Assembly: GCA_024653305.1 (NCBI GenBank)
Contig: JANLFW010000013.1
Coordinates: 1-41,371, forward strand
Reading direction: 5' to 3'
DNA length: 41,371 nucleotides
DNA from: Candidatus Acetothermia bacterium
GTDB taxonomy: Bacteria; Bipolaricaulota; Bipolaricaulia; Bipolaricaulales; Bipolaricaulaceae
This document shows, in pieces, positions 3,181-38,905 of the stretch. The translations under genes were made by a program, and so were the position numbers. Each line of letters opens with the position of its first letter. Within the stretch, counting starts at the first letter, position 1. The notes below the pieces were generated by a model, which searched no databases, had not been told where the DNA came from, and saw nothing but the letters and a program-made list of their open reading frames with translations.

Positions 3181-3750
3181 GTGGACCTAGCTAAGATCGA
3201 GGCCGGGGTCCGGCTGATCCTGGAAGGCCTGGGGGAGGAGTTGCTCTCCCCGGAGATGCGCGCCCATACCCCGCGCCGGGTGGCGGAGATGCTCGTCGAG
3301 CTGTGCGCCGGGCTGGGAAAGGACCCGGCGACGGAGATCGAGGTCCTCCTCCAGGAGCCCTACGACGAGATGGTGGTCCTGCGGGACATCCCGTTCCACT
3401 CCCTGTGCGAACACCACCTGCTGCCGTTCCTGGGCCGGGCCAGCATCGCCTACTTGCCCAAGGGCGGGCGGATCGTGGGGGCGGGGAAGCTCGCCCGGGT
3501 GCTCGAGGTGGCCGCGGCCCGGCCGCAGCTCCAGGAGCGGCTTACGTCCGAGGTCGCCGATGCCCTGATGGAGAAGCTCCACGCCCACGGGGTCCTCGTG
3601 TACGTCGAAGCGGAGCACCTGTGCCTGACCCTGCGCGAGGCGCGGGCTCAAGGAAGCGTGCTCGCCACCTCCGCCATCCGCGGGATCTTCCGCACCGATC
3701 CTGCGGCCCGGGCCGAGGCCTTGGCCCTCATTCGCCGATCTTCCACGTGA
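3181..3750 (+). CDS. folE: GTP cyclohydrolase I (FolE type)
   Basis: This enzyme of 189 residues converts GTP to dihydroneopterin triphosphate, the entry step of folate and also of 7-deazapurine (queuosine) synthesis. The zinc site is complete: Cys76 and His79 in S-L-C-E-H-H, and Cys148 in E-H-L-C-L. Other family features are the Y-L-P-K-G segment, R-P-Q-L-Q-E-R-L-T near 114-122, and A-T-S-A-I-R-G-I-F near the end. The usual M-R-G after the last cysteine is changed to L-R-E-A. The start is GTG 3181, 10 bases after tnaA. Its last 23 bases overlap the convergent PP-loop gene. Since no other folate gene or queuosine synthesis gene is present here, which pathway it serves cannot be told. Confidence 0.9.
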   Translation: MDLAKIEAGVRLILEGLGEELLSPEMRAHTPRRVAEMLVELCAGLGKDPATEIEVLLQEPYDEMVVLRDIPFHSLCEHHLLPFLGRASIAYLPKGGRIVGAGKLARVLEVAAARPQLQERLTSEVADALMEKLHAHGVLVYVEAEHLCLTLREARAQGSVLATSAIRGIFRTDPAARAEALALIRRSST

Positions 3751-4741
3751 CCAGCCGTGGGTCGTCCTTGGGCAACGGAACCACGGTGAGTTCGCACGTC
3801 CCCCCGACGTGGGCCAGCACCGCCCGCACCGGCTCCCCGGGGCGGGCATCGCTGTACCGGGCGGCCAGTTGCACGGCGAGGCCAAGCTCCTCCTCGGTCG
3901 GCGTTCCCTCGACCAGCGCCAGGGGGCCGGGCACGTCGGGGAACATGACCGTCCACCGTCCGGATGAAAATCCGTTCAGGATCACGTTTTCAGTCTCGTC
4001 CCGGCTCACGATGACCTTGGCCGTGGGCGAGATGCGGAAGTGCCGGCCGTACCGGAGGAGGGCGAAATCGCGCTCGTCCAGGGCGGCGAGACCACGAGCC
4101 CGGGACGCATCCCGCAACCGGGCCGCATACGCCTTCTCAAGGAGGAGGCAGCACCCCCCGGACGGCTGGAGGAAGTGGTGGATCCCCCACGCTTGGGCCA
4201 ACGCCAGTTGCCGCCGCCGGGAGCGGCCCTGGATGTCCAGCCAATCATCGCGCCGCACCCAGCCTTGCCTTTCGGGGTAAGTGGCCGGGAGAAGGCGGCC
4301 AGAGAGAGGACGCACGACACGATCGCCCAGCCCTGACTCCTCGGCCACGAGCTCGAGGGCCCGCCGGTGCTGGGACATCGGGCGCTGCCCAAGGACCTCT
4401 CCGGTGACCACGAACGCCGCCCCCTCCGCGGCCATGACCTCGCCCGCCTTCCGCACCATGAAGATGCGGCAATCGATACACGGGTTCATCCCCGAACCAT
4501 AGCCGTGCCGGGGATGGCGGACCACGTCCAGGTACTCGCGGGACACATCGAGGAGCCGGACCGGGATGCCGAGCGCCTGTCCGGTGGCGAGCACGGTGTC
4601 GCACCGGCCCTGGCCGATACAGAACCCCGTGGCCAGGTTCACCCCTACCACCCCGAACCCGAGGCGCAGGGTGAGGGCCGCCGCCAGCGCCGAATCCAGC
4701 CCGCCGGAGAGGAGAGCGATCGCCCGGACGTCTTCCACCAT
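3728..4741 (-). CDS. PP-loop ATP pyrophosphatase, tRNA-thiolase-like
   Basis: This protein has 337 residues. The N-terminal PP-loop S-G-G-L-D-S (12-17) marks an adenylating enzyme of the MnmA/ThiI/QueC/TtuA superfamily. It is followed by N-P-C-I-D-C (Cys88, Cys91), the T-G-E-V-L-G-Q-R-P-M-S-Q segment, G-W-V-R-R, L-D-I-x-G-R-S-R-R and a G-G-C-C pair (Cys197, Cys198). This arrangement fits a family of MnmA-related proteins often annotated tRNA methyltransferase or 2-thiouridylase. The cysteines could carry persulfide sulfur or bind an iron-sulfur cluster. It is not QueC, as the QueC zinc motif is absent. Residues from about 230 to the end form an extra domain of unknown role. The transcript appears leaderless: a TATGAT box ends 9 bases before ATG 4741. 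Confidence 0.65.
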   Translation of the reverse strand: MVEDVRAIALLSGGLDSALAAALTLRLGFGVVGVNLATGFCIGQGRCDTVLATGQALGIPVRLLDVSREYLDVVRHPRHGYGSGMNPCIDCRIFMVRKAGEVMAAEGAAFVVTGEVLGQRPMSQHRRALELVAEESGLGDRVVRPLSGRLLPATYPERQGWVRRDDWLDIQGRSRRRQLALAQAWGIHHFLQPSGGCCLLLEKAYAARLRDASRARGLAALDERDFALLRYGRHFRISPTAKVIVSRDETENVILNGFSSGRWTVMFPDVPGPLALVEGTPTEEELGLAVQLAARYSDARPGEPVRAVLAHVGGTCELTVVPLPKDDPRLVTWKIGE

Positions 4742-4749
4742 CGCCGGGT

Positions 4750-4755
4750 ATCATA
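4750..4755 (-). promoter_or_regulatory. -10 box of PP-loop gene, leaderless start
   Basis: TATGAT on the minus strand (4755-4750) predicts transcription from about 4743, immediately before ATG 4741. There is no ribosome site. The -35 region is poorly matched. Confidence 0.4.
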
Positions 4756-4821
4756 GAAGGTGAACGTGGGTTCCCTCCACCGGATCTCCACCGGGGCTGC
4801 ACGCTCCCTGCAAACCGGACG

Positions 4822-4850
4822 TGCTAGGGTGGTACCCAGTTCAGGAGGTG
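4822..4850 (+). promoter_or_regulatory. Extended -10 and RBS of htrA
   Basis: TGC-TAGGGT at 4822-4830 reads as an extended -10, and AGGAGGTG just before ATG 4859 is a near-perfect ribosome site that decides the start over the upstream GTG at 4760. Confidence 0.4.
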
Positions 4851-4858
4851 AAGCGCGC

Positions 4859-6265
4859 ATGAGGAAGGTCACAGCCGTTTCGGCGTTGATGCTCGTGGTG
4901 GCGGTGCTCGCCCTGGGTCAGAACGTTCAAGAGGCGATCACCGCCTCCGGCCAGGCGGCGGTCAAGGCGGCCATCGCCCGGGTCGCCCCGGCGGTGGTGA
5001 AGATCGAGGCCGCGAAAAGGGTCACGAGTTGGTGGGACCAGATCTTCCAAGATCCGTTCTTCCGGCGCTTCTTCGACGTACCCCCTCTCGGGGGGCGCGA
5101 GGTGACCTCGCTCGGGTCGGGGTTCGTGGTGGAGCACGGGGGGAAGCGCTACGTCCTGACCAACGCCCACGTGGTGGAAGGGGCGGACTCGATCCGGGTG
5201 AGCGCCCAGACCGGGAAGATCCTCCCGGCGAAGGTGGTGGGCACGGACAGTTGGTTGGACCTGGCGGTGATCGCCGTGGAGGACGCCGCGGACCTGCCCG
5301 CCGCCCCGCTCGGGGACTCCGACGCCCTGGAGATCGGGGATTGGGTGATCGCCATTGGGAACCCCTTGGGGTTCTCGCACACGGTGACCCTGGGCATTGT
5401 CTCCGCCCTTAACCGGGACGTGCCCCGGCCCGACGGGTCCGGGTACTACCGGCGCATGATCCAGACCGACGCCGCCATCAACCCCGGCAACTCCGGGGGC
5501 CCCCTGGTGAACGCGTACGGCGAGGTGGTGGGGATGAACACCGTCATCGCCCGCAGCACCGAGAGCGGGGTGGCGGTGGAGGGGATCAACTTCGCGGTGC
5601 CGATCAACGAGATCAAGCAGGTGCTCGCCCGGATGATCGGGGAGGGCAAGGTGACCCGGGCCTGGCTTGGGGTGTACATCCAGGACCTGATCCCGGGCAT
5701 GGAGCGCCAGTTCGGCGTGGCCTCCGGACAGGGGGTGCTGGTAGCGGATGTCGTCTCCGGTTCCCCGGCGGAGGCGGCTGGGATCCGGCGCGGGGACGTG
5801 ATCGTGTCCGTGGCTGGGCGTAAAGTGGGGTCCGCCGCTGCCCTGCAGGCGGAGATCATGTACCGCCGAGTCGGGGAGACGGTGGAGATCGGGCTCGTGC
5901 GGGATGGCCGGTCCCTGACCCTCACCGTGACCCTGGGGGCGCGGCCGGATGAGGGGACGGTATCCCCGCCCAGCCCGGCTCCCGGGGCGCCCAAGTTCGG
6001 GCTGACGGTTCACGACATCACCCCGGACGTGGCCAGACAGTTCGGCCTCACCCAGGTCGCGGGCGGGGTCATCGTGACCGCGGTGGCTCCCGGATCCCCA
6101 GGCCACGTGGCCGGGGTCAGAGCCGGGGACGTGATCGTGGAGGTAGACCGGCGGCCGGTGAAATCGGTGGAGGACTGGAACCGAATCGTGGCCGATCTGC
6201 CCGAGTCGGGGGTGCTGCTCACCGTGCAGCGGGAGGGACGGACCCTGTTCCTCTTGATACAATAG
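4859..6265 (+). CDS. HtrA/Deg-type periplasmic serine protease
   Basis: This protein has 468 residues. A signal peptide (hydrophobic residues 8-20) sends it across the inner membrane. The trypsin-like domain has its triad intact: His104 (T-N-A-H-V-V), Asp134 (W-L-D-L-A-V) and Ser212 (N-P-G-N-S-G-G-P-L). An F-F-R-R-F-F stretch at 67-72 matches the LA-loop region of DegP/DegQ. Two PDZ domains follow (about 290-385 and 395-468), each with a G-V-x-V/I-x-x-V start and an A-A/V-G-I/V-R-x-G-D-V-I core. This is the domain order of DegP/DegQ/MucD, which degrade or refold damaged envelope proteins. It sits alone between a divergent PP-loop gene and tRNA-Pro, whose promoter overlaps its stop codon. Confidence 0.92.
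   Translation: MRKVTAVSALMLVVAVLALGQNVQEAITASGQAAVKAAIARVAPAVVKIEAAKRVTSWWDQIFQDPFFRRFFDVPPLGGREVTSLGSGFVVEHGGKRYVLTNAHVVEGADSIRVSAQTGKILPAKVVGTDSWLDLAVIAVEDAADLPAAPLGDSDALEIGDWVIAIGNPLGFSHTVTLGIVSALNRDVPRPDGSGYYRRMIQTDAAINPGNSGGPLVNAYGEVVGMNTVIARSTESGVAVEGINFAVPINEIKQVLARMIGEGKVTRAWLGVYIQDLIPGMERQFGVASGQGVLVADVVSGSPAEAAGIRRGDVIVSVAGRKVGSAAALQAEIMYRRVGETVEIGLVRDGRSLTLTVTLGARPDEGTVSPPSPAPGAPKFGLTVHDITPDVARQFGLTQVAGGVIVTAVAPGSPGHVAGVRAGDVIVEVDRRPVKSVEDWNRIVADLPESGVLLTVQREGRTLFLLIQ
6235..6263 (+). promoter_or_regulatory. Promoter of tRNA-Pro inside htrA end
   Basis: TACAAT at 6258-6263 lies 17 bases after GGGACG (6235-6240). It overlaps the htrA stop codon and predicts a start about 6 bases before the tRNA. 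Confidence 0.4.
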
Positions 6266-12618: not shown

Positions 12619-13803
12619 ATGTCCGCGCTGATCTGGGCCGGGTTCGCCCTGTCCTTGGCCGCCCTCCTCGGCCTGGCGCGGTGGAGCCTGTGGGGGGCGA
12701 TGGCGGTCGGGGCGGCCATCCTGGGCGTGTTCACCCTTCCCCTTCGGGAGGTGATCCCGACCCTGGCCGCGGTGCTGACCGACCCCGGGGTGCTCCTGCT
12801 CGGGCTGGCGGTGAGCGTGATGCCCCTGATCGGGGCGGCGATGGAGCGGACCGGGCGCATGGATGCCCTGGTAGAGAACCTGGGAGTGGGGCGGCGGGCC
12901 GTGTTCGCCCTGGCTCCTGCCCTCCTGGGGATGCTCCCCATGCCCGGTGGGGCGCTCCTCTCTTCGCCCCTGCTGGAGCGGACCGGTGGGGCGACAGCAG
13001 AGGTGCGGGCCGCGGCCAACGTGTGGTTTCGGCACGCGATGCTGTTCGTGTACCCGATCTCCGCCTCCCTCATCACCGCGGCCAAGTTGGCTGGCCTCGA
13101 TGTGTGGACGGTGCTCCCCTACCAGCTCCCAGCCCTCGTCCTGTCCGCAGCCCTGGGCTACATCTGGCTCCTGCGCCCGGTGTCCGGTCGTCTGGACCCA
13201 AGCGGGCCACGATCCCCAGCCGCGCTCCTCGCCCCGCTCGCGATCCTCCTCGCCGCCCCGGCCCTGGACCTCCTCCTCAAGCGGGCGGCCCACCTCCCGG
13301 TGCCGGAGCTGGCCACGTTGGCTGGGGTGACCGCGAGCCTGGCTCTCGCCGCGTGGGGCAAGCTCACGGTGTGGGACGTGGTCCACCTGGCCCGCCGGGG
13401 GAAGCCGTGGCGGTTCGGCCTGATCGTGGCAGGGATGTTCGCGTACCTCGCGGCCTTCCAGCGCTCCGGGATGCCGGGGCTCATCTCTGGGTTGCACCTC
13501 CCGCCCCAGGTGCTGTGCCTGGGGATCGGATGGCTGCTTGGGTTCGCCACCGGGCGGCAGCAAGCGGCCACCTCCATCGTGATCCCCATCTACACCGCGA
13601 GCTACGGCCTGATGGGGCCGTGGGCGTTCGCCGTGACCTATTTCGCCTCGTACTTAGGGTACCTCTTGTCCCCGCTCCACCCGTGCCTCACCGTGTCCGC
13701 GGCGCATGCCGGGACCACCCTCGGGGCCACCTGGCAACGGCTGCTGCCGCCGAGCGTGGTTGCCCTCCTGGTCACAGCCGTGGCCGGGTTTGTGGTGCTC
13801 TAA
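12619..13803 (+). CDS. DUF401-family integral membrane protein
   Basis: This 394-residue protein has ten or more hydrophobic helices. The segment L-G-M-L-P-M-P-G-G-A-L-L-S-S-P-L (about 104-119) is typical of DUF401, a family related to the gluconate/citrate symporters. A second conserved-looking loop, W-L-L-G-F-A-T-G-R-Q-Q-A (about 304-315), precedes helix-rich C-terminal sequence. The substrate is unknown. It lies 72 bases after the LolA-like gene, with a short G+C-rich dyad between, so it may or may not belong to the exporter operon. Its stop overlaps the end of the convergent tgt by 4 bases. Confidence 0.75.
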   Translation: MSALIWAGFALSLAALLGLARWSLWGAMAVGAAILGVFTLPLREVIPTLAAVLTDPGVLLLGLAVSVMPLIGAAMERTGRMDALVENLGVGRRAVFALAPALLGMLPMPGGALLSSPLLERTGGATAEVRAAANVWFRHAMLFVYPISASLITAAKLAGLDVWTVLPYQLPALVLSAALGYIWLLRPVSGRLDPSGPRSPAALLAPLAILLAAPALDLLLKRAAHLPVPELATLAGVTASLALAAWGKLTVWDVVHLARRGKPWRFGLIVAGMFAYLAAFQRSGMPGLISGLHLPPQVLCLGIGWLLGFATGRQQAATSIVIPIYTASYGLMGPWAFAVTYFASYLGYLLSPLHPCLTVSAAHAGTTLGATWQRLLPPSVVALLVTAVAGFVVL

Positions 13804-15005
13804 CCGTGCGGCGGCTCGCGAACGAGGTCGAGGTCGGGCACAGCCCCCCTGGTTAGGACAGTCCGGATCCGGTCCATCAGCCGGACCATGAACCGCAGGT
13901 TGTGCACCGTGGCCAGCCGGTAGTAGGAGAGCTCTCCGGACCGAAAGAGGTGATGCAGGAACGCCCGGGGGTACCGTCGGCACGTGAGGCAGTCGCACCC
14001 CTCCTCGATGGGCCGATCGTCGCGGCGGAGCCTCCCTGTCTTGATGGAAAGACGAAACCTGGGCTCCCCAAACCCAAGCAGAACTCCGTTCCGTGCCAGA
14101 CGCGTCGGGGCAGCGCAGTCGAACGTGTCCACCCCCAAGCTCACCGCGACCAGGATGTCCTCCACCGCCCCGATCCCGAGGAGGTGGCAGGGACGGTCCC
14201 GGGGGAGCTCGGCCACCGTCCACTCGAGCACCCGGTGCATGTCCTCCTTGGACCGGCCCAACGACCCGCCGATCGCGAACCCGGGGAACCCCATGCTGGC
14301 GATGGTTCGCGCCGACGCCCGGCGCAGGTCCTCGTACGCCCCGCCCTGGACGATCCCCCATAGGGCCTGATCCGGATTGGGGCCAAGCCCCTGCGTCCCT
14401 TCGAACGCACGCAGGGCCCGCTCCGCCCAGCGGTGGGTCCGGTCCATCGCCGCCTTGGTGTACGCACGGTCGTGGAACGGAGAGGTGCACTCGTCCAAGG
14501 GCAAGATCACATCCGCCCCGAGGAGCCGTTCGAGGAGGATCACCTCCTCCGGGCTGAAGAAGATCCACGACCCGTCGATCACCGACCGGAACCGGACCCC
14601 ATCCTCGGTGAGCCGGACGAGGGATTCCCCCATCGGCCGGATGGGCGCCGCGCCGGGGAAGATGGGCGCGATCTTCCCCACCCCGTGGACCTTGCCTGCC
14701 CCGAGGCTGAACACCTGGAACCCGCCGGAGTCCGTGAACCAGGGGCCTTGCCAGCCGGTGAACCCGTGCAGCCCCCCAAGGGCCCCGATCGCCTCCGCGC
14801 CTGGGCGCAGGGCCAGGTGGTAGGTGTTGGCGATCAGCACCTCCACCCCGATCGCCTCCAGGTCTTGGACCGCAAGGGCCTTCACCGTGCCCCGGGTGGC
14901 CACGGCCACGAATGCCGGGGTCTGAACCACGCCGTGGGGGGTGAAGAGCTCGCCAAGGCGGGCCTCCGTCCCCGGGACCTCGGCCAGGATCCGGAACGAG
15001 GACAT
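13800..15005 (-). CDS. tgt: tRNA-guanine transglycosylase, possibly queuine-type
   Basis: This 401-residue enzyme exchanges G34 of tRNAs with GUN anticodons for a 7-deazaguanine. Catalytic residues are present: Asp92 (T-D-S-G-G-F-Q), Asp171 (D-E-C) and nucleophile Asp296 (F-D-C-A-A-P-T-R), plus the zinc site Cys337, Cys339, Cys342 and His368. The pocket segment reads G-G-S-L-G-R-S-K (246-253) instead of the G-G-L-A-V-G-E of preQ1-using bacterial enzymes. Loss of that valine in favour of glycine is the change known from enzymes that accept the bulkier queuine. It follows the DUF2419 gene with a 3-base gap, so the two act together. Its 3' end overlaps the convergent DUF401 gene. Confidence 0.9.
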   Translation of the reverse strand: MSSFRILAEVPGTEARLGELFTPHGVVQTPAFVAVATRGTVKALAVQDLEAIGVEVLIANTYHLALRPGAEAIGALGGLHGFTGWQGPWFTDSGGFQVFSLGAGKVHGVGKIAPIFPGAAPIRPMGESLVRLTEDGVRFRSVIDGSWIFFSPEEVILLERLLGADVILPLDECTSPFHDRAYTKAAMDRTHRWAERALRAFEGTQGLGPNPDQALWGIVQGGAYEDLRRASARTIASMGFPGFAIGGSLGRSKEDMHRVLEWTVAELPRDRPCHLLGIGAVEDILVAVSLGVDTFDCAAPTRLARNGVLLGFGEPRFRLSIKTGRLRRDDRPIEEGCDCLTCRRYPRAFLHHLFRSGELSYYRLATVHNLRFMVRLMDRIRTVLTRGAVPDLDLVREPPHG

Positions 15006-15008
15006 GGG

Positions 15009-15941
15009 CTAGTAGAACACGGTGAGGGTGCGGTGGTGGGGGACCGGCAGCTGGCGCTGGCTTAGGTGCCACAGGAGCCAATCCACCTCGAACGCCCTGA
15101 GCGGCCGGCCGCGGCGTTCCAGGGCTGCAGTGAGCTCCTCCACCGCGACCACCGTCGCCGCCCGCAGCTCCACCTCCGGTGGGGACCCGGCCGGGATCGG
15201 TTCCATCCGGTCGAGGCGCTGGGCCAGCGCGGGGTGAAGGGCAAGCGCCCCTTCTGCGCGGAGGATCTGGGGAAGCTTGTAGTCGGCGAACGCCGTGAGC
15301 CAATCGAGGTCCGTGAGCCTTCCTGGGCCCTCCCCGGCGAACGCCCCGGCGAGGTCCGCGCACAGGATCTGGGCCCGCTTGTGGAAGAACACCGCGCGGC
15401 CGCGGTACTCGGCGGCGTCGCGGAACGAGGGGAGGTGGGCGGTGAGAAGCTCCACCAGGCGCCGGCAGGAGCCCCGGGCGGCGGCGAAAAACGCCCGCGC
15501 GGAACCAAACCGGAGCAGCGCCTCCCCGACCTCCCGTACGACCCGCGCCCGCAGGGGAAGGAGGGCGATGTCCCCCAGGATGCGGCGCAGCCCGTCCACG
15601 TCGAGCGCGGCCATGTTCTCGGGCTCAAAGAACTCCGGGTCCCCTTCCGCGGCCCGACGCAGGGCATAGGCCAGGGCGAAGTACCCGGTGAGCCGTTCCC
15701 CAGCGGGCCCGGCCACGGACCACGCCTTGTTCGGCCAGAAACAAAAGTTCAATGCGTCCAGGACGAGGAGGTAGCGCAGGGAGAGCTCCTCTGCCCCGCG
15801 GAAGTGGTAGCGGCCCTCCCAGGTGGAGAGCGGGAGATCGACCAGCCACCCCGCCAGGGCGTCGAGCGCGTTCCGATCGAGGCGCACCCAGCGGGCCCGG
15901 CGCACAATCCACCGAGATCCCGTTCGGACCGGGTTCTCCAT
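15009..15941 (-). CDS. Queuosine-salvage glycosidase (DUF2419/Qng1 family)
   Basis: This 310-residue protein is recognised from L-D-A-L-N-F-C-F-W-P (61-70), G-Y-F-A-L-A-Y-A-L-R-R-A (86-97), H-K-R-A-Q-I-L-C-A-D-L (187-197), A-D-Y-K-L-P-Q-I-L (219-227), V-E-L-R-A-A-T-V-V-A-V-E (257-268) and the terminal D-W-L-L-W-H-L-S. This is the eukaryotic C9orf64/Qng1 family, also found in scattered bacteria, which releases queuine from queuosine 5'-monophosphate. The freed queuine would be the substrate of the neighbouring Tgt. There is no signal peptide, so it is cytoplasmic. ATG 15941 lies 5 bases after the gatC stop with GAGGG upstream; earlier in-frame starts would overlap gatC. Confidence 0.85.
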   Translation of the reverse strand: MENPVRTGSRWIVRRARWVRLDRNALDALAGWLVDLPLSTWEGRYHFRGAEELSLRYLLVLDALNFCFWPNKAWSVAGPAGERLTGYFALAYALRRAAEGDPEFFEPENMAALDVDGLRRILGDIALLPLRARVVREVGEALLRFGSARAFFAAARGSCRRLVELLTAHLPSFRDAAEYRGRAVFFHKRAQILCADLAGAFAGEGPGRLTDLDWLTAFADYKLPQILRAEGALALHPALAQRLDRMEPIPAGSPPEVELRAATVVAVEELTAALERRGRPLRAFEVDWLLWHLSQRQLPVPHHRTLTVFY

Positions 15942-15946
15942 CGCCG

Positions 15947-16240
15947 TCAGCCCTCGAACACCGGGGGGACGAAGAAGTACCCGTCGCGGGCCGCCGGCGC
16001 GTTCGCCATGGCCTCCTCCGGGGACACCGAGGCCCGGGGCTCGTCTTCCCGCCACGCGTTGACCTGGCCCGGCAGCGGGGTGAACGGAGGCACGTCCTCG
16101 GTGGGGAGCTCCTGGAGCTTTTGGAAGTAGTCGAGGATCCGGGAGAGGTCGGCCCGCAGATGCCGCCGCTCCTCCGGGGACAAGCTCAACCCGGAAAGGG
16201 CCTCCACGCGCTCCATGGTCCGCTCGTCGATCACGTTCAC
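15947..16240 (-). CDS. gatC: Aspartyl/glutamyl-tRNA amidotransferase subunit C
   Basis: This 97-residue protein is the small stabilising subunit of GatCAB, which amidates misacylated Glu-tRNA-Gln or Asp-tRNA-Asn. It has the family pattern of an N-terminal helical region (E-A-L-S-G-L-S-L-S-P-E-E), the I-L-D-Y-F-Q-K-L-Q-E-L segment, T-E-D-V-P-P-F-T, and R-D-G-Y-F-F-V-P-P-V at the end. The GTG start overlaps the recG stop (GTGA), so the two are translationally coupled. gatA and gatB are not in the window. Confidence 0.85.
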   Translation of the reverse strand: MNVIDERTMERVEALSGLSLSPEERRHLRADLSRILDYFQKLQELPTEDVPPFTPLPGQVNAWREDEPRASVSPEEAMANAPAARDGYFFVPPVFEG

Positions 16241-18516
16241 ACCCCCAGCAGGGTCAGCGCCTCCCCGAACCGGCGATCCACCTCCCGGGCCAGCGCCTCC
16301 GGCACCCCCGCCTCCACCACGCGCAGCGCCTCGGCCCGCGCCCGTTCAAGGAGCCGGAGGTCCCGCACCAGGTCCGCCGCCCGGAGCTGGGACACGAACC
16401 CATGCTGCTGCGTCCCGAGGAGGTCGCCGGGCCCGCGGATGCGCAGGTCCGCCTCGGCGATCTTAAACCCATCGGAGAGGTCGCGAAAGGCGGAGAGGCG
16501 TTCTCGGGCGTCGTCGGCGGTGGGGTCGGCGATGGCGAAGCAGATCGCGGGCTGGCCCTTGCGGCCGATTCGCCCCCTGAGCTGGTGGAGCTGGGCAAGG
16601 CCGAACCGGTCGGCATGCTCGATCACGAGGAACGAGGCGTCTGGCACGTCCAAACCCACCTCGACCACGGTGGTCGCCACCAGGAGCTGGATCTCTCCCT
16701 CCCGAAACGCGCTCAAGGCCGCCCGTTTCTCCTGAGGGGACATGCGCCCGTGGAGCAGGCCCACCCCATGGTCGGGGAACCGCTGCCGCAGCTCCGCGTA
16801 GGCCGACTGAGCCGCCCGTAGGTCCAGCTCCGCCGACTCCTCCACCAGGGGGAACACCACGTACCCCTTCTCCCCCTGCCCAAGAAGGCCCCCCACCTCT
16901 CGGTACACCTCCTCCCGATGGGACTCCGAGACCCAAACCGTGCGCACGCTTCCCCGCGGGGCCGGCATCTCCTCGAGCACGGACACCGCGAACTCCCCGT
17001 ACAGGGTAAGGATCACGGTGCGGGGGATGGGGGTAGCGGACATGACGAGGATGTTCGTGCCCGCCCCCTTGGCCTCGAGCGCTGCCCGCTGGATGACCCC
17101 GAACCGGTGCTGCTCGTCCACCACCGCCAGGGCCAGATCGTGGAACGCCACGTCCTCCTGGATCAGGGCGTGGGTCCCCACCACCACGTCCACCTCCCCG
17201 GCGGCCACCGCGGCGAGCATCTGCCGCCGTCCTTTCCGCCCAAGGTCCCCCACCAAAAGACCCACCCGCACCGGGAGATCCCGGAATAGCTCCTGCAGCA
17301 CGAGGTAGTGTTGCTCGGCCAGGATCTCGGTGGGGGCCATCACCGCCGCCTGGGCCCCGGCGGAGGCGGCCATGACGCACGCCCCAGCCGCCACCGCCGT
17401 CTTGCCCGAGCCCACGTCCCCTTGGAGAAGGCGCAGCATGGGGTAAGGGGCGCGGAGGTCGGCGTCGATCGCGGCCAGGGCCCGCTGCTGGGACGGGGTG
17501 AGCCGGAATGGGAGGCCGGCCAGGAACCGGTCCATCCATGCGCGGTCCGGGACGAGCGCCCGCCCGGTGGGCCGGTCTTGGGCCCGCCTCCGGACGACCC
17601 CGACCTCGAGCAGGAACAGTTCCTCGAACGCGAGCGCCTGCCGCGCCCGCTCGAAGTCCTGGGGGCCGTCCGGGAAGTGGATCTTGGCCATCGCCTCCCG
17701 GCGCGGCAGGAGCCCTAGGCGCTGCCGCACCTCCCTCGGCACCACCTCCGGGATCCTTGAGCCGAACCGGTTGAGCGCCCGCCGAATCAGGCCCTGGAGG
17801 ATGGCCTGGGACAGGCCCTCCGTGGTCGGGTAGATGGGCACCCAACGGCCGGTTTGAACGTTGACCCCTACCCGCTCCCAAACCGGGTTTTCCATCTGCA
17901 GCTCCCCGTACCGGAGCTGGGCCCGGCCCCACAGCGCGTATTCCTGACCTTGGTCGATCTGGTCCCATAGCCAGGGCTGGTTGAACCAGATCGCAAACAG
18001 AAGCCCGGTCCCGTCGTCCACCGCTACCTTCACGAGCTCCAGGCCCGGCCGCACCTTGACCCGCGACTTCGCCCGTACCACGCCCTGGACCATCGCCGCC
18101 TCCCCGTCGCCCACCTCGGCGATGGGCACGAGCCGGGTGCGATCCTCGAGGCGCCGGGGGAAGAAGGTCAGCAGGTCCTCAATGGTGTGGATGCCGAGCC
18201 GCCTGAGGAGGCTCAGGCGCTTCGCCCCCACCCCCGGGGCATGGGCGATGTCCCCCGGCCAAACCTCCTCGGCCGGTTCCCCCCGCTCCAGCCGGGCCAG
18301 CACCTCCTCGAGGCGCGCGAGAGCCGCCTCCCGGGAGGACGGGTCCAGGGCCGCGTAGCCAGCCACGGAATGGCCGCCCTCCGGGAGGTGACGGCTCACA
18401 AAGCCCTCCAGGCCCCCAAGGACGGCGGCATCGGCGCACCCCTTCCGCCGCTCGAGCTCCACCACCTTGCGCACGAGGGCGATCCGCGCGGCGAGGTCCT
18501 CCTCCGTTGTCGGCAT
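16237..18516 (-). CDS. recG: ATP-dependent DNA helicase RecG
   Basis: This protein of about 759 residues remodels stalled replication forks and Holliday junctions. After an N-terminal region of about 100 residues with a helix-hairpin-helix (G-V-G-A-K-R-L-S-L-L-R-R-L-G) comes the OB-fold wedge domain (V-V-R-A-K-S-R-V-K-V). The helicase motor follows: Walker A G-D-V-G-S-G-K-T, motif II D-E-Q-H-R-F-G, motif III S-A-T-P-I-P-R-T, and motif VI Q-L-R-G-R-I-G-R, then the R-G-P-G-D-L-L-G-T-Q-Q-H-G tail. The start is taken as ATG 18516 because the promoter predicts transcription from about 18524; ATG 18528 would lie upstream of that. gatC overlaps its stop. Confidence 0.93.
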   Translation of the reverse strand: MPTTEEDLAARIALVRKVVELERRKGCADAAVLGGLEGFVSRHLPEGGHSVAGYAALDPSSREAALARLEEVLARLERGEPAEEVWPGDIAHAPGVGAKRLSLLRRLGIHTIEDLLTFFPRRLEDRTRLVPIAEVGDGEAAMVQGVVRAKSRVKVRPGLELVKVAVDDGTGLLFAIWFNQPWLWDQIDQGQEYALWGRAQLRYGELQMENPVWERVGVNVQTGRWVPIYPTTEGLSQAILQGLIRRALNRFGSRIPEVVPREVRQRLGLLPRREAMAKIHFPDGPQDFERARQALAFEELFLLEVGVVRRRAQDRPTGRALVPDRAWMDRFLAGLPFRLTPSQQRALAAIDADLRAPYPMLRLLQGDVGSGKTAVAAGACVMAASAGAQAAVMAPTEILAEQHYLVLQELFRDLPVRVGLLVGDLGRKGRRQMLAAVAAGEVDVVVGTHALIQEDVAFHDLALAVVDEQHRFGVIQRAALEAKGAGTNILVMSATPIPRTVILTLYGEFAVSVLEEMPAPRGSVRTVWVSESHREEVYREVGGLLGQGEKGYVVFPLVEESAELDLRAAQSAYAELRQRFPDHGVGLLHGRMSPQEKRAALSAFREGEIQLLVATTVVEVGLDVPDASFLVIEHADRFGLAQLHQLRGRIGRKGQPAICFAIADPTADDARERLSAFRDLSDGFKIAEADLRIRGPGDLLGTQQHGFVSQLRAADLVRDLRLLERARAEALRVVEAGVPEALAREVDRRFGEALTLLGV

Positions 18517-18535
18517 TATCGGATCCATCTATAAT
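18507..18535 (+). promoter_or_regulatory. Promoter of def-fmt operon
   Basis: TTGTCG (18507-18512), 17 bases, TATAAT (18530-18535), giving a start near 18542. The -10 is a perfect consensus. The -35 lies within the divergent recG gene. Confidence 0.75.
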
Positions 18536-18559
18536 AAACGCCTTCACTGGGAGGACCAA
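18531..18559 (-). promoter_or_regulatory. Promoter of recG operon, superimposed on def promoter
   Basis: On the minus strand TTGGTC (18559-18554), 17 bases, TATTAT (18536-18531). Five of six bases of this -10 are the same base pairs as the def -10, so RNA polymerase probably cannot occupy both at once. Confidence 0.65.
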
Positions 18560-18562
18560 GGG

Positions 18563-19066
18563 ATGGTACGGGTTTATCCGGATCCGATCTTGCGGCGGCC
18601 GGCTCAGCCGGTCCAGCCGGGAAGCGACGAGGCGCGCATGGCGGCGACCTCCCTGCGCCGGGCGTTCGCCGAGCTGGAGGCATTGGGGCTCGCGGCCAAC
18701 CAGATCGGGTTCCCGGTACGGGTGATCATGGTCCGCCTTGGGGACGAGGATCAGGTGCTCCTGAACCCGGCCATTGTGGCGCGGTCGTCCGCGCTCTCCG
18801 TGGAGTCCGAGGGGTGCCTGTCCATCCCCGGGGTGGAGGCGGAGGTGCCGCGGGCGGCGGAGGTGGTGGTGCACGCCATGGACGAGGAAGGCCGGCCGGT
18901 GGAGCTCACCCTCACCGACCTGGAGGCCCGGCTCCTCCAGCATGAGGTGGACCACCTCGACGGGGTGCTGTACGTGGATCACCTCCCGTTTTCCGAGCGT
19001 CGCCGCATCCTGCGCGCGTTCCGCGAAGCCCAGAAACGAAAGGAGCAGGTGACTTCCGCCACGTGA
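18563..19066 (+). CDS. def: Peptide deformylase
   Basis: This 167-residue metal hydrolase removes the formyl group from new proteins. All three family motifs are intact: G-L-A-A-N-Q-I-G (42-49), E-G-C-L-S-I-P-G (83-90, metal ligand Cys85) and Q-H-E-V-D-H-L (126-132, ligands His127 and His131, catalytic Glu128). The start at ATG 18563 is preceded by GGGAGGA and lies about 21 bases into the predicted transcript. fmt follows with a GTGA overlap, the common def-fmt pairing of formyl removal and addition. Confidence 0.95.
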   Translation: MVRVYPDPILRRPAQPVQPGSDEARMAATSLRRAFAELEALGLAANQIGFPVRVIMVRLGDEDQVLLNPAIVARSSALSVESEGCLSIPGVEAEVPRAAEVVVHAMDEEGRPVELTLTDLEARLLQHEVDHLDGVLYVDHLPFSERRRILRAFREAQKRKEQVTSAT

Positions 19067-19992
19067 CGGTACGCCTCGCGTTCGCCGGCACCAGCCGGTT
19101 CGCCGTGCCGGCCCTGCAGGTCCTGGCGCGGCGGTTCGGCCTGGTCCTGGTGGTGACCCAGCCCGATCGGCCCGCCGGACGCGGGCTCCCGCTCACCTCG
19201 CCCCCGGTCAAGGAGGAGGCCCAGCGCCTCGGCCTGCCCCTCGTTCAGCCCCGGTCGATCAACGCCCCCGACGTGGTGGAGCGGTTGCGGTCCTTGGACC
19301 TCGACCTTTTGGTGGTGGCCGCGTTCGGCCAGCTCCTGCGCCCGGCCGTGCTGTCCCTCCCCCGGCTGGGGTGCGTGAACATCCACGCCTCCCTCCTCCC
19401 CAACTACCGCGGGGCGGCCCCGGTGGCATGGGCGATCATCCACGGGGAGGAGGAGACCGGGGTGACCACGTTTCGCCTGGACGAGGGAATGGACACCGGT
19501 CCGATCTTGCTCCAGCACAAGGCCGCGATTGGCCCGAACGACACGGCCGGGGAACTGGAGGCGCGCCTGGCGGAGCTGGGTGCGGAGCTGATCGTGGACA
19601 CGGTGGAGGGCTTAGCTAGCGGCACCCTCACCCCCGTGCCCCAGCCCCCGGAGGGGACGCTCGCGCCGAAGCTCCACCGGGAGGACGGGCGCATCCGCTG
19701 GGATTGGGAGACGCGACGCATCCACAATCTGGTGCGGGGCACGAACCCATGCCCCGGGGCGTACACGCACTTCGGGGAGCGGCCGGTCAAGGTCCATCGC
19801 ACCCGCCCCGTGGAGGAGGGGCGGTCGGACCTCCCCCCCGGGACCATCCTCCCCCGACGGGACCGGCTCCTCGTGGCCACCGGAGACGGGGCATTGGAAC
19901 TTCTCGAAGTCCAGCCGGCGGGGTGCCGGGCCATGTCCGGCCGGGACTTCCTGAACGGCTACTGCCGGACCGCCGGGGAGCGGTTCGCTTGA
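19063..19992 (+). CDS. fmt: Methionyl-tRNA formyltransferase
   Basis: This 309-residue enzyme formylates initiator Met-tRNA using 10-formyltetrahydrofolate. Residues V-N-I-H-A-S-L-L-P-N-Y-R-G-A-A-P (105-120) carry catalytic Asn106 and His108 and the loop that follows, and Asp144 is in M-D-T-G-P-I. The C-terminal OB-fold domain (about 210-309) that grips the tRNA acceptor is complete, ending G-R-D-F-L-N-G-Y. The GTG start overlaps the def stop. Its final 34 bases overlap the convergent MFS gene. Confidence 0.94.
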   Translation: MTVRLAFAGTSRFAVPALQVLARRFGLVLVVTQPDRPAGRGLPLTSPPVKEEAQRLGLPLVQPRSINAPDVVERLRSLDLDLLVVAAFGQLLRPAVLSLPRLGCVNIHASLLPNYRGAAPVAWAIIHGEEETGVTTFRLDEGMDTGPILLQHKAAIGPNDTAGELEARLAELGAELIVDTVEGLASGTLTPVPQPPEGTLAPKLHREDGRIRWDWETRRIHNLVRGTNPCPGAYTHFGERPVKVHRTRPVEEGRSDLPPGTILPRRDRLLVATGDGALELLEVQPAGCRAMSGRDFLNGYCRTAGERFA

Positions 19993-36230: not shown

Positions 36231-38181
36231 CGGCCTTGGCCTTCAGCTGGGCCAGGATCCGCTCTTGGAGCTGAGCGGGCACGTAGTCATAGCGCAAGAA
36301 CTCCATCTGGAACGTGGCCCGGCCCTGGGTGAGGGACTTCAGGTCCAGGGCGTAGGACAGGGTTTCCGCCATCGGGATCTCTGCCCGGATCACGGTGCGC
36401 CCGGCCGCGGATTCCATCCCCAGGATCCGCCCCCGGCGCGAGGTGAGGTCGGAGATGATGTCCCCGGTGAACGCGTCAGGGGTGGTCACGGCGAGGAGCA
36501 TCACCGGCTCCAGCAAGGCCGGCTCCGCTTTCTCCACCGCCAGCTTGAACGCGGTCCGGGCGGCGATCTTGAAGGAGAGCTCGGAGGAGTCCACCTCGTG
36601 GTACATGCCGTAGAACACAGCGGCCTTCACGTCCACCACCGGGAATCCAGCGAGCACGCCCTCCTCCATCGCCTCCCGCACCCCCTTCTCCACCCCGGGG
36701 ATGAACTGCTGGGGGATAACCCCGCCCTTGGTCTCGTCCGCAAACTCGAACCCGCTCCCGCGGGGCAGGGGCTCGATGCGGAGGTGGACCTCCCCGAACT
36801 GGCCGTGTCCGCCGGTCTGCTTCTTGTGCCGGTATTGGGCGGTGGACGTCTTGCGGATCGTCTCCCGGTACGGGATCTTGGGGACCCGGAACTGCACCTC
36901 CACCCCGTACCGGGTGCGCAGGCGCTCCGCGAGCACGTCGAGCTGCACGTCGCCCATCCCCGACACAAGGGCCTCCTTGGTCACCGGGTCCCGTTGGTAG
37001 CTCAGCGTGGCCTTGATCGCCACCAAGTCCCGCAGGACCATGCTCATCTTCTCCTCGTCCGCTTGGGACTTGGGGGCCACGGCCCGGGTGAACACGGGCT
37101 TGGGGAACGGGATCGGGGGCTCCAGTTCCCCGTCCGGAGCCGCGGAGAGCGTGGCCCCCAGGGTCAGGCCCTCCAGCTTGCCGAGCGCCACGATGTCCCC
37201 GGCCCCGGCCTGGCCGGTCTTCTCCAGCTTCGTCCCGCTGAACCCGTACACATCGCGGACCTGAAGTTTATCCTTGGTGGCGAGGTTGAACAGGGTGTCC
37301 CCCTCGCGCACCGCCCCGGCGAGGACCTTGGCGTAGCCCAGTCGGCCGAGGTAGGGGTCGATGGCCAGGGAGAACACGCGCAGGCGGGCAGCGGCCCCGT
37401 CCGTGTTCTCCGGGACCAAGGTGAGCACCGTGTCCACCAGCTCCTTCACCCCCTGGCCGGTCTGAACCGAACCCCACAGCACGGGGATGAGGCGACCTTG
37501 CCCCACCCCAGCCCGCATGGCGGAAAGCGCCTCGTCGCGGGACAGCGGCTCGTCGGCCAGGACCTTCTCCAGCAAAGCATCGTCGAAGGTCGCGATCTCC
37601 TCGATGAGCTCGGTGCGGAGCGAACCGGCCTGGTCGGCGAGATCCGGCACGCCTCCCTTGCCGGAGAACGCGGTCGGCTGGCCGGTGAGGAGGTCGACGA
37701 GCCCCAGGAACTTGTCCCCATCCCGAATCGGGAGCTGGAGGGCGCAGAACTTCCCGTCCAGGTTGTGCCGCAGCTCGTCCAGCACCTTCTTCGGATCGAC
37801 GTGGGGCTTATCGAGCATGTTCACGAACACCACCGCCGGCCGGTTCATGCGCTGGCGGATCGCCCACGCCTGCTCGGTCACCACCTCCACCGGTTTCTCC
37901 GCGTTCACCACCACCACCGCGAGGTCGGCGGCATCCAACCCCTTGTAGATCTCCTCCACGAACTCCCCCAAGCCGGGGGAGACGATGAGGTTGAGCTTCT
38001 TGTCTTTCCAGGTACAGGAGCCGACGGAGAGGTCGATGGAGAGACCGCGGTTCTTCTCCTCCGGTGTGCGGTCGAACGCGACCTCGCCTTGCACCCCGGC
38101 AGTGCGGACAATGGCCTCCGCAAGCGCGGTCTTCCCAGAGCCGGAGTGACCGACGAAACATACGCTGTAGGCCTGCCTCAT
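36220..38181 (-). CDS. EF-G-like GTPase paralogue with degenerate G3 and G4
   Basis: This 653-residue protein has the five-domain arrangement of elongation factor G but resembles the EF-G2 group. G1 is G-H-S-G-S-G-K-T (11-18) and G2 R-G-L-S-I (45-49). G3 reads V-S-P-G (67-70) instead of D-T-P-G-H, lacking both the magnesium-binding aspartate and the catalytic histidine, and G4 is N-M-L-D (121-124) instead of N-K-x-D. The domain IV region G-G-H-G-Q-F-G-E-V is present. It may bind GTP weakly or not hydrolyse it. ATG 38181 is chosen for its GAGGTG ribosome site; GTG 38190 is the alternative. It leads an operon with the CBS and YjbQ genes. Confidence 0.82.
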   Translation of the reverse strand: MRQAYSVCFVGHSGSGKTALAEAIVRTAGVQGEVAFDRTPEEKNRGLSIDLSVGSCTWKDKKLNLIVSPGLGEFVEEIYKGLDAADLAVVVVNAEKPVEVVTEQAWAIRQRMNRPAVVFVNMLDKPHVDPKKVLDELRHNLDGKFCALQLPIRDGDKFLGLVDLLTGQPTAFSGKGGVPDLADQAGSLRTELIEEIATFDDALLEKVLADEPLSRDEALSAMRAGVGQGRLIPVLWGSVQTGQGVKELVDTVLTLVPENTDGAAARLRVFSLAIDPYLGRLGYAKVLAGAVREGDTLFNLATKDKLQVRDVYGFSGTKLEKTGQAGAGDIVALGKLEGLTLGATLSAAPDGELEPPIPFPKPVFTRAVAPKSQADEEKMSMVLRDLVAIKATLSYQRDPVTKEALVSGMGDVQLDVLAERLRTRYGVEVQFRVPKIPYRETIRKTSTAQYRHKKQTGGHGQFGEVHLRIEPLPRGSGFEFADETKGGVIPQQFIPGVEKGVREAMEEGVLAGFPVVDVKAAVFYGMYHEVDSSELSFKIAARTAFKLAVEKAEPALLEPVMLLAVTTPDAFTGDIISDLTSRRGRILGMESAAGRTVIRAEIPMAETLSYALDLKSLTQGRATFQMEFLRYDYVPAQLQERILAQLKAKADEG

Positions 38182-38198
38182 CCAGATCACCTCAAAGG

Positions 38199-38228
38199 TT
38201 GCTTGAAAACGCGACGGCAGTATATCCT
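38199..38228 (+). promoter_or_regulatory. Promoter of DUF47-phosphatase operon
   Basis: TTGCTT (38199-38204), then TATATC after 16 bases (38221-38226) or TATCCT after 18 (38223-38228). An AGGAGGG ribosome site precedes ATG 38258. Confidence 0.5.
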
Positions 38229-38247
38229 AGAGGGAGAAGGGCGACAA
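38219..38247 (-). promoter_or_regulatory. Promoter of EF-G-like operon, overlapping the divergent -10
   Basis: On the minus strand TTGTCG (38247-38242), 17 bases, TATACT (38224-38219), giving a start near 38212 and a leader of about 30 bases. Its -10 shares four base pairs with the plus-strand -10. Confidence 0.65.
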
Positions 38248-38257
38248 AGGAGGGCCG

Positions 38258-38905
38258 ATGTGGTTCCGTCGCGGTCGGGCGGTGGAAGTCCGGGGACTGA
38301 TAGCGGAGCACCTGAACCTGGTGGAGGAGGCGGTGGCGTCGATGGCCCGCGGGGTCTGCGCCTACCTGGATGGCCGGCCATGGGAGGAGGTGGAAGAACT
38401 GGCGGTGGAGACCCACCGCCGGGAGGCCCGGGCCGATGACGTGCGGCGGGAGACGGAGCTCGTCCTGGTGCGCGGAGCGCTCCTCGCCGGCACGCGCAAG
38501 AACCTCCTGGACATCGTGGAAGGGGTGGACCGACTGGCCAACGCCGCGGAGGCAGCGATGGACTTCCTCGTGCTGCAGCGGGTCAAGCTCCCCGAGCTCC
38601 TCCATCCCCTGATCCGGGAGATCGTGGACACCATCCAGGACCAGATGGTGGACCTCAAGGCGGCGGTGGCCGGTCTCCTCGACGGCGCTCCGGACACGAT
38701 GAAGCGCGCCGCGGAAGTGGACCGCAAGGAGAGCCGGGTGGACGAGTTCCAGCGCCGGGCGATCATGCGCCTGTTCGCCACCGAACTTCCCCTGGCGGAG
38801 AAGATCCTGGCCCGGGAGTTCGTGGAGAGGCTTGTGGAGTTCGCGGACCGGGCCGAGGACGTGTCGGATCTGGTGATCATGGCCGTCGCTGTGCAGCAAC
38901 CGTAA
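38258..38905 (+). CDS. PhoU-like DUF47 protein, first copy
   Basis: This 215-residue all-helical protein matches the DUF47 group: an early long helix with E-H-L-N-L-V-E-E-A-V, the central R-K-N-L-L-D-I-V-E-G-V-D-R-L-A-N-A-A-E segment, repeated E-x-x-x-D-x-x-x-R pairs that bind metal in PhoU-type folds, and F-A-D-R-A-E-D-V-S-D near the end. DUF47 proteins usually sit beside Pit phosphate transporters and are thought to tune them; no Pit gene is visible here. It is followed after 9 bases by the phosphoesterase. Confidence 0.85.
   Translation: MWFRRGRAVEVRGLIAEHLNLVEEAVASMARGVCAYLDGRPWEEVEELAVETHRREARADDVRRETELVLVRGALLAGTRKNLLDIVEGVDRLANAAEAAMDFLVLQRVKLPELLHPLIREIVDTIQDQMVDLKAAVAGLLDGAPDTMKRAAEVDRKESRVDEFQRRAIMRLFATELPLAEKILAREFVERLVEFADRAEDVSDLVIMAVAVQQP

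Follow-up and report, generated by a model that had tools for sequence, protein, structure and literature searches.

Can a single -10 element serve two operons that are transcribed away from each other? The gap between recG and def raises this question. It lies in the window, the whole stretch of 41,371 nucleotides analysed here, which belongs to a Candidatus Acetothermia bacterium genome of 1.59 Mb in 73 contigs. When named genomes were scanned with the window's RecG, 37 loci matched: nine came from Candidatus Bipolaricaulota / Acetothermia records, the closest of these (94–97%) from a MAG labelled Bipolaricaulaceae, and the others from distant proteobacteria. The original prediction placed two promoters on opposite strands of this gap, with most of the -10 in common, and proposed that the operons on either side compete for RNA polymerase.

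Genes flanking the recG/def gap

The minus strand carries recG (16237–18516), gatC (15947–16240), a gene for a queuosine salvage protein (15009–15941) and tgt (13800–15005). The plus strand carries def, encoding peptide deformylase (18563–19066), and fmt (19063–19992). The matches of gatC (TIGR00135), tgt (TIGR00430), def (TIGR00079, with PF01327) and fmt (TIGR00460) are above the model cut-offs, as are those of recG (NCBIfam NF008168, NF008165 and TIGR00643, scanned from ATG 18528), which also has the Pfam RecG_wedge domain. The queuosine salvage protein (Q_salvage) matches Pfam PF10343 (E 3.8e-69), which we take to be the former DUF2419. From the close gene spacing, recG-gatC-Q_salvage-tgt and def-fmt are putative operons.

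TGA flags on the def matches pointed to a possible selenocysteine. This was dropped; the active-site Cys codon is present in 42/42 aligned loci. The active-site motif is EGCLS in 41 of these and EACLS in one (L132). In alignment, genus g5 (L004–L007, L009 and L011) has GAG or GAC at the position of the window's def ATG, with CTG before it, which suggests that def uses an uncommon start codon or begins elsewhere in these loci.

Predicted promoter elements

The predicted def-fmt promoter on the plus strand consists of the -35 hexamer TTGTCG (18507–18512), located within recG codons 2–4, and the -10 hexamer TATAAT (18530–18535), identified from the sequence and by a promoter scan. The predicted recG promoter on the minus strand consists of TTGGTC (18559–18554), located in the def leader, and TATTAT (18536–18531), with 18536 as the minus-strand -12T. 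Re-reading the sequence located all four hexamers and both 17-base spacers as predicted, and the two -10 elements have five base pairs (18531–18535) in common. The Shine-Dalgarno-like GGGAGG of def occupies 18549–18554. The overall arrangement, TTG-17-TATAATA-17-CAA, is inverted. Position 18531 is A on the plus strand and T on the minus strand, and 18535 is T on the plus strand and A on the minus strand, a reciprocal -11A/-7T pair. The def-fmt promoter has 10 of 12 consensus matches and passes the threshold of the scanner. The recG promoter has 8 of 12 and lies below it; the scanner lists the plus promoter alone.

Transcript starts, and all distances between them, were predicted from the hexamers with a 7-base distance after the -10. 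The recG transcript would start with the A at 18524, about 8 nt before ATG 18516. The def transcript would start in the region 18540–18542; the rule gives 18542, which is C, and the nearest purine is G 18540. The predicted start distance in the window is 16–18 bp, 18 with the start at 18542 and 16 with G 18540. The plus strand has T at 18524 (-18 from 18542), and C at 18542 leaves the minus direction without a -18T; this thymine is a tendency, not a requirement.

Chance level within the genome

The background was estimated in a 441 kb sample of the same genome (the window and 20 stretches of 20 kb). An opposing partner was defined as an overlapping TANNNT on the other strand with TTG 16–18 bases away. 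A comparable partner is found at 6/58 other TATA[AC]T sites and, within 70 nt upstream of called genes, at 5/32 TATA[AC]T sites. Against this background, a single shared -10 site is not significant. Among 38 divergent pairs in the sample with a gap of at most 300, recG/def has the top score, narrowly (18 versus 17). What raises the arrangement above chance is its conservation across relatives, not the window's site alone.

Divergent recG/def loci in relatives

Searches of 60 relatives and of 100 genomes of the class identified 74 loci with recG and def adjacent and divergent. Of these, 38 belong to the window's family (f1), 29 to a second family (f2), three to f6, two to f7 and one each to f3 and f8. 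The genomes are mostly fragmented, and the counts, coming from related loci, are not independent. The divergent pair is present in 37/40 f1 genomes, that is, in every f1 genome with a def match (the other three have none). The f1 genome G001 holds a second pair that resembles genus g12, perhaps a contamination. In f2, 29/33 genomes have the pair. In f4, f5, f9 and the rest of f3, recG and def, whenever both were found, lay on separate contigs, and recG was not found beside def in the 11 def loci fetched from f4, f5, f9 and f3. In a RecG tree (41 rows; two too-short f2 rows left out), the f1 rows form a clade (99/99); f2 clusters with f7, and f3 clusters with f6 and f8. As the deep forks of this tree are weak (for example, 84/51), we make no claim on the ancestral register.

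The anchor TATA[AC]T is present in 71/74 loci, including the def -10 of 38/38 f1 loci, and absent from L121 (f2) and from L050 and L119 (f7). An opposing TTG-16/18-TANNNT overlaps the def -10 in 61 of the 71 anchored loci. Both -35 elements are present in 50/71, and every f1 and every anchored f2 locus has at least one of them. In f1, 31/38 loci have the opposing -10 with TTG at 16, 17 or 18 bases, in each case at offset +1, which puts 18 bp between the predicted starts. Of the anchored f2 loci, 27/28 have an opposing -10 of this kind, without exception at offset -4 and spacer 17, for a predicted distance of 23 bp. Offset -4 also occurs in f3 (1/1) and f8 (1/1), and offset +1 in f6 (1/3). The plus TTG is located 16–18 bases from the def -10 in 29/38 f1 and 27/28 anchored f2 loci. 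By genus, the minus TTG occurs at least once in 8/12 f1 genera and in 11/12 anchored f2 genera. In f1, the minus -35 keeps its 16–18 spacing even though the genera differ in where it lies with respect to the def ribosome-binding site (judged by eye).

The conserved positions are exchanged between f1 and f2, the pattern expected of two promoters set in two registers. An A directly follows the -10 (equivalent to 18536) in 38/38 f1 loci, which are variable at bases -4 to -2. Across f2, positions -4 to -2 read A (100%), C (100%) and T (96%), with variation at the position that follows the -10. The f2 minus -35 with its neighbour (+22 to +25) is C (96%), A (100%), A (100%) and G (100%); conservation does not exceed 79% in columns +6 to +18 and is 54–86% in columns +19 to +21. 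The equivalents of 18531 and 18535 are at 100% in the 38 f1 loci, both columns also being demanded by the TATA[AC]T anchor, and the equivalent of 18540 is G in 79% of these loci. The column comparison ignores tree structure, so no probability is given for it.

The double -35 is not universal. The minus TTG is absent from 7/38 f1 loci (g4, g6, g9, both g11 and two of g5) and the plus TTG from 9/38, including all of the g12 type. In f2, L047 has no minus TTG-TANNNT, and two of the three f6 loci lack both -35 elements.

Four loci without the minus TTG, L023, L028, L030 and L031 (g11, g11, g4 and g6), have AATAAGCGTTCTCAA in common at the -10; this may be another type of element serving the recG side.

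Control promoters

As controls (d1–d3), we used the genes for an ABC transporter binding protein, aspartate carbamoyltransferase and a PadR-like regulator, with upstream regions from f1. These genes have a same-direction upstream gene, as established in the window's genome alone. The controls comprise 67 loci (30, 22 and 15), of which 56 (29, 17 and 10) have a TTG-type promoter; the -10 candidates of d2 are poorly conserved. A partial match (L271) was left out of d3.

An opposing TTG-TANNNT is found at 0/56 control promoters versus 61/71 recG/def loci; the Fisher value for this comparison, 4e-26, is overstated, as the loci are related and the control -10 elements differ. The -10 is followed by A in 5/56 control promoters versus 38/38 f1 loci. 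The controls have a TATA[AC]T -10 in 9/56 cases and any overlapping opposing TANNNT in 21/56. Because the absence of opposing matches is partly due to these -10 elements, the TTG was also compared alone, which is the fairer comparison. In register +1, it is found in 31/38 f1 loci versus 3/56 controls and, in register -4, in 27/28 f2 loci versus 0/56 controls. A CAA in the f1 register is also present in five of the 28 f2 loci. When the bases downstream of the -10 were shuffled, the mean was 2.7/38 for f1 (maximum 8 in 1000) and 2.0/28 for f2 (maximum 7).

The predicted def -35 within the recG coding sequence

The plus -35 TTG falls in recG frame 1 in 28/28 f1 loci whose spacer is 17 bases (for example, N-terminal MPTT) and in recG frame 0 in 27/27 f2 loci (for example, MPQEN). 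The residues across it are mostly Thr-Thr in f1 versus Gln in f2, and the DNA triplet is the same. As the TTG is read in two different recG frames, it is kept as DNA, and protein constraint does not explain it.

Start codons and short leaders

The in-frame ATG at 18528 is upstream of the predicted minus start (about 18524). If the promoter makes recG mRNA, recG would therefore start at ATG 18516 (MPTTEE...), which our own gene caller also chose. An in-frame ATG or GTG is found 2–10 nt after the predicted minus start in 38/38 f1 loci and 1–4 nt after it in 28/28 anchored f2 loci; this count covers the 66 anchored f1 and f2 loci, with those of f3, f6 and f8 left out. In the one f3 locus and the one f8 locus, both in register -4, an ATG overlaps the -10 (judged by eye).

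In the own-genome sample and the window, with start codons placed by our gene caller, -10-like hexamers peak 6–8 nt before start codons (19 cases, none with a Shine-Dalgarno-like sequence). A second peak is located 18–20 nt before start codons (13 cases, nine with a Shine-Dalgarno-like sequence). The recG -10, at 14 nt from its start codon, lies between these peaks, and we counted this against the recG promoter.

Leaderless or short-leader mRNAs look common in the window's organism, as the hexamer positions suggest. We found no published account of leaderless mRNAs in Acetothermia, nor of the recG/def-fmt divergent promoter, in the open-licence papers searched; a search there by title and start of abstract found nothing relevant on promoters of Bipolaricaulota.

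Other sites of interest

Two further divergent gaps (c1 and c2) were rejected as negative controls because they had been picked from high-scoring divergent pairs. In c1 (38181–38258), an EF-G-like gene on the minus strand diverges from a TIGR00153-like gene on the plus strand, the latter below the model cut-off. A TTG-type promoter is present in 27 of 30 family loci, and the -10 on the EF-G side, TATACT, recurs in 29/30. An opposing TTG with a spacer of 18 in the 23-bp register is found in 16 of the 27 loci with a TTG-type promoter. The gap is possibly a second bidirectional promoter. In c2 (4741–4859), upstream of a gene at 3728–4741 with weak ThiI/MnmA-like similarity and divergent from an HtrA/DegP-family protease gene, a TTG-type promoter is found in 0/29 loci (a paralogue, L203, was left out). 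Most of these 29 family loci have a TATGATA/TATCATA box near the start and GTGGAG-type repeats (judged by eye).

A palindrome around CCGATATATCGG is located between the -10 and the start of the PadR-like regulator gene, in L054 just upstream of 3332 and in relatives L256–L265. It occurs in ten loci from several genera and is possibly the regulator's own candidate operator.

Discussion

Promoters that work in both directions were reportedly established as a bacterial class in a 2021 founding paper by Warman, Wade, Grainger and colleagues. In one paper on the class, a bidirectional promoter has divergent starts 7–25 bp apart on opposite strands; in the 18-bp form, -11A and -7T are reciprocally paired between the directions and a thymine at -18 of each direction is usual (PMC10268837). 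A second paper states that 19% of detected E. coli RNAs come from bidirectional promoters and that a start distance of 18 bp is commonest, with 10 and 23 also common (PMC12825309). The recG/def site shares with this class the common -10 and the opposite -35 elements, and both predicted distances, 18 bp in f1 and 23 bp in f2, are among the common published ones. The second paper describes E. coli divergent pairs driven from a shared -10, with starts 10–23 bp apart (PMC12825309). Bidirectional promoters of Salmonella and E. coli are reported to be most frequent between divergent genes, and the recG/def site is likewise so placed. The class is defined by mapped starts, whereas those of recG/def are predicted from sequence. 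In some of these E. coli pairs, one gene encodes a regulator of the other (AcrR, SoxR; PMC12825309), whereas the genes on either side of the recG/def gap are not recognised regulators and have no known activator. The arrangement is not unprecedented; it has the commonest geometry of the described class and is here deeply conserved.

We regard the recG/def site as very probably a bidirectional promoter of the housekeeping sigma factor. Polymerase with its -35 contact at 18507–18512 would transcribe def-fmt from about 18540–18542, and polymerase with its -35 contact at 18554–18559 would transcribe recG-gatC-queuosine salvage-tgt from about 18524, giving recG mRNA a very short leader. The same melted -10 would serve both orientations, with 18531 and 18535 acting as -11A and -7T reciprocally.

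It could instead be that the def-fmt promoter alone is real, that recG is transcribed from elsewhere and that the minus match arose by chance, helped by the near-palindromic TATAAT. The scanner result, in which the plus promoter is the sole one to pass, agrees with this, as do the opposing matches at 6/58 TATA[AC]T sites of the genome and the 7/38 f1 loci without a minus TTG. A chance match would, however, hardly recur in 61/71 loci against 0/56 controls, or the TTG alone in 31/38 and 27/28 loci against 3/56 and 0/56. Nor would it be expected to hold a 16–18 spacing in f1 while shifting in place against the def ribosome-binding site (judged by eye), or a spacer of exactly 17 in 27/28 anchored f2 loci with the whole set moved by five bases; we consider this reading improbable. 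The converse, that the recG promoter alone matters, def is started elsewhere and the plus -35 is conserved as code for the RecG N-terminus, we consider highly improbable. The plus -35 does lie within recG codons, and g12 loci retain the minus promoter without a plus TTG, but the frame of the TTG differs between f1 and f2 (mostly Thr-Thr versus Gln), and the plus register of TATAAT, unlike the minus register, is constant across the two families.

The inverted TTG-17-TATAATA-17-CAA would also suit a dimeric regulator centred on the -10, with the flanking TTG and CAA as its half-sites rather than -35 elements. Against this, the outer span is 52–54 bp in f1 (plus spacer 17) versus 48 in f2, which the difference in -10 register requires, and it varies by 1–2 within f1, as sigma spacers allow and as would be unexpected for a rigid dimer. 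We give scarcely any credence to this last reading.

Returning to the bidirectional promoter, the predicted pair of promoters with one -10 between recG-gatC-DUF2419-tgt and def-fmt is well supported by its conservation. That polymerase would occupy the site in one direction at a time, as was also predicted, follows from the geometry, and for this class simultaneous binding in both directions is stated to be sterically excluded (PMC12825309). The proposed competition between the two operons through the shared -10 is left as a possibility. At 5/5 E. coli bidirectional promoters, activity in one direction was little affected when the other was weakened, with a basal activity too low for substantial competition, and competition appears once one direction is strongly activated (PMC12825309).

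It is conceivable, if rather less than probable, that the bidirectionality of the recG/def site is itself under long-term selection in Bipolaricaulota, the overlap having been rebuilt or preserved through the change of register (18 and 23 bp), not lost, perhaps fixing the ratio of translation-initiation processing (def-fmt) to the recG-gatC-tgt operon. A case that can be traced by sequence through two families and two common geometries would show that bidirectional promoters can be stable. The 18-bp form, the 23-bp form and the forms without one -35 make up a natural series for asking if the overlap matters in balancing the two operons. The results also suggest that bidirectional promoters may be findable by comparison of genomes, without RNA data.
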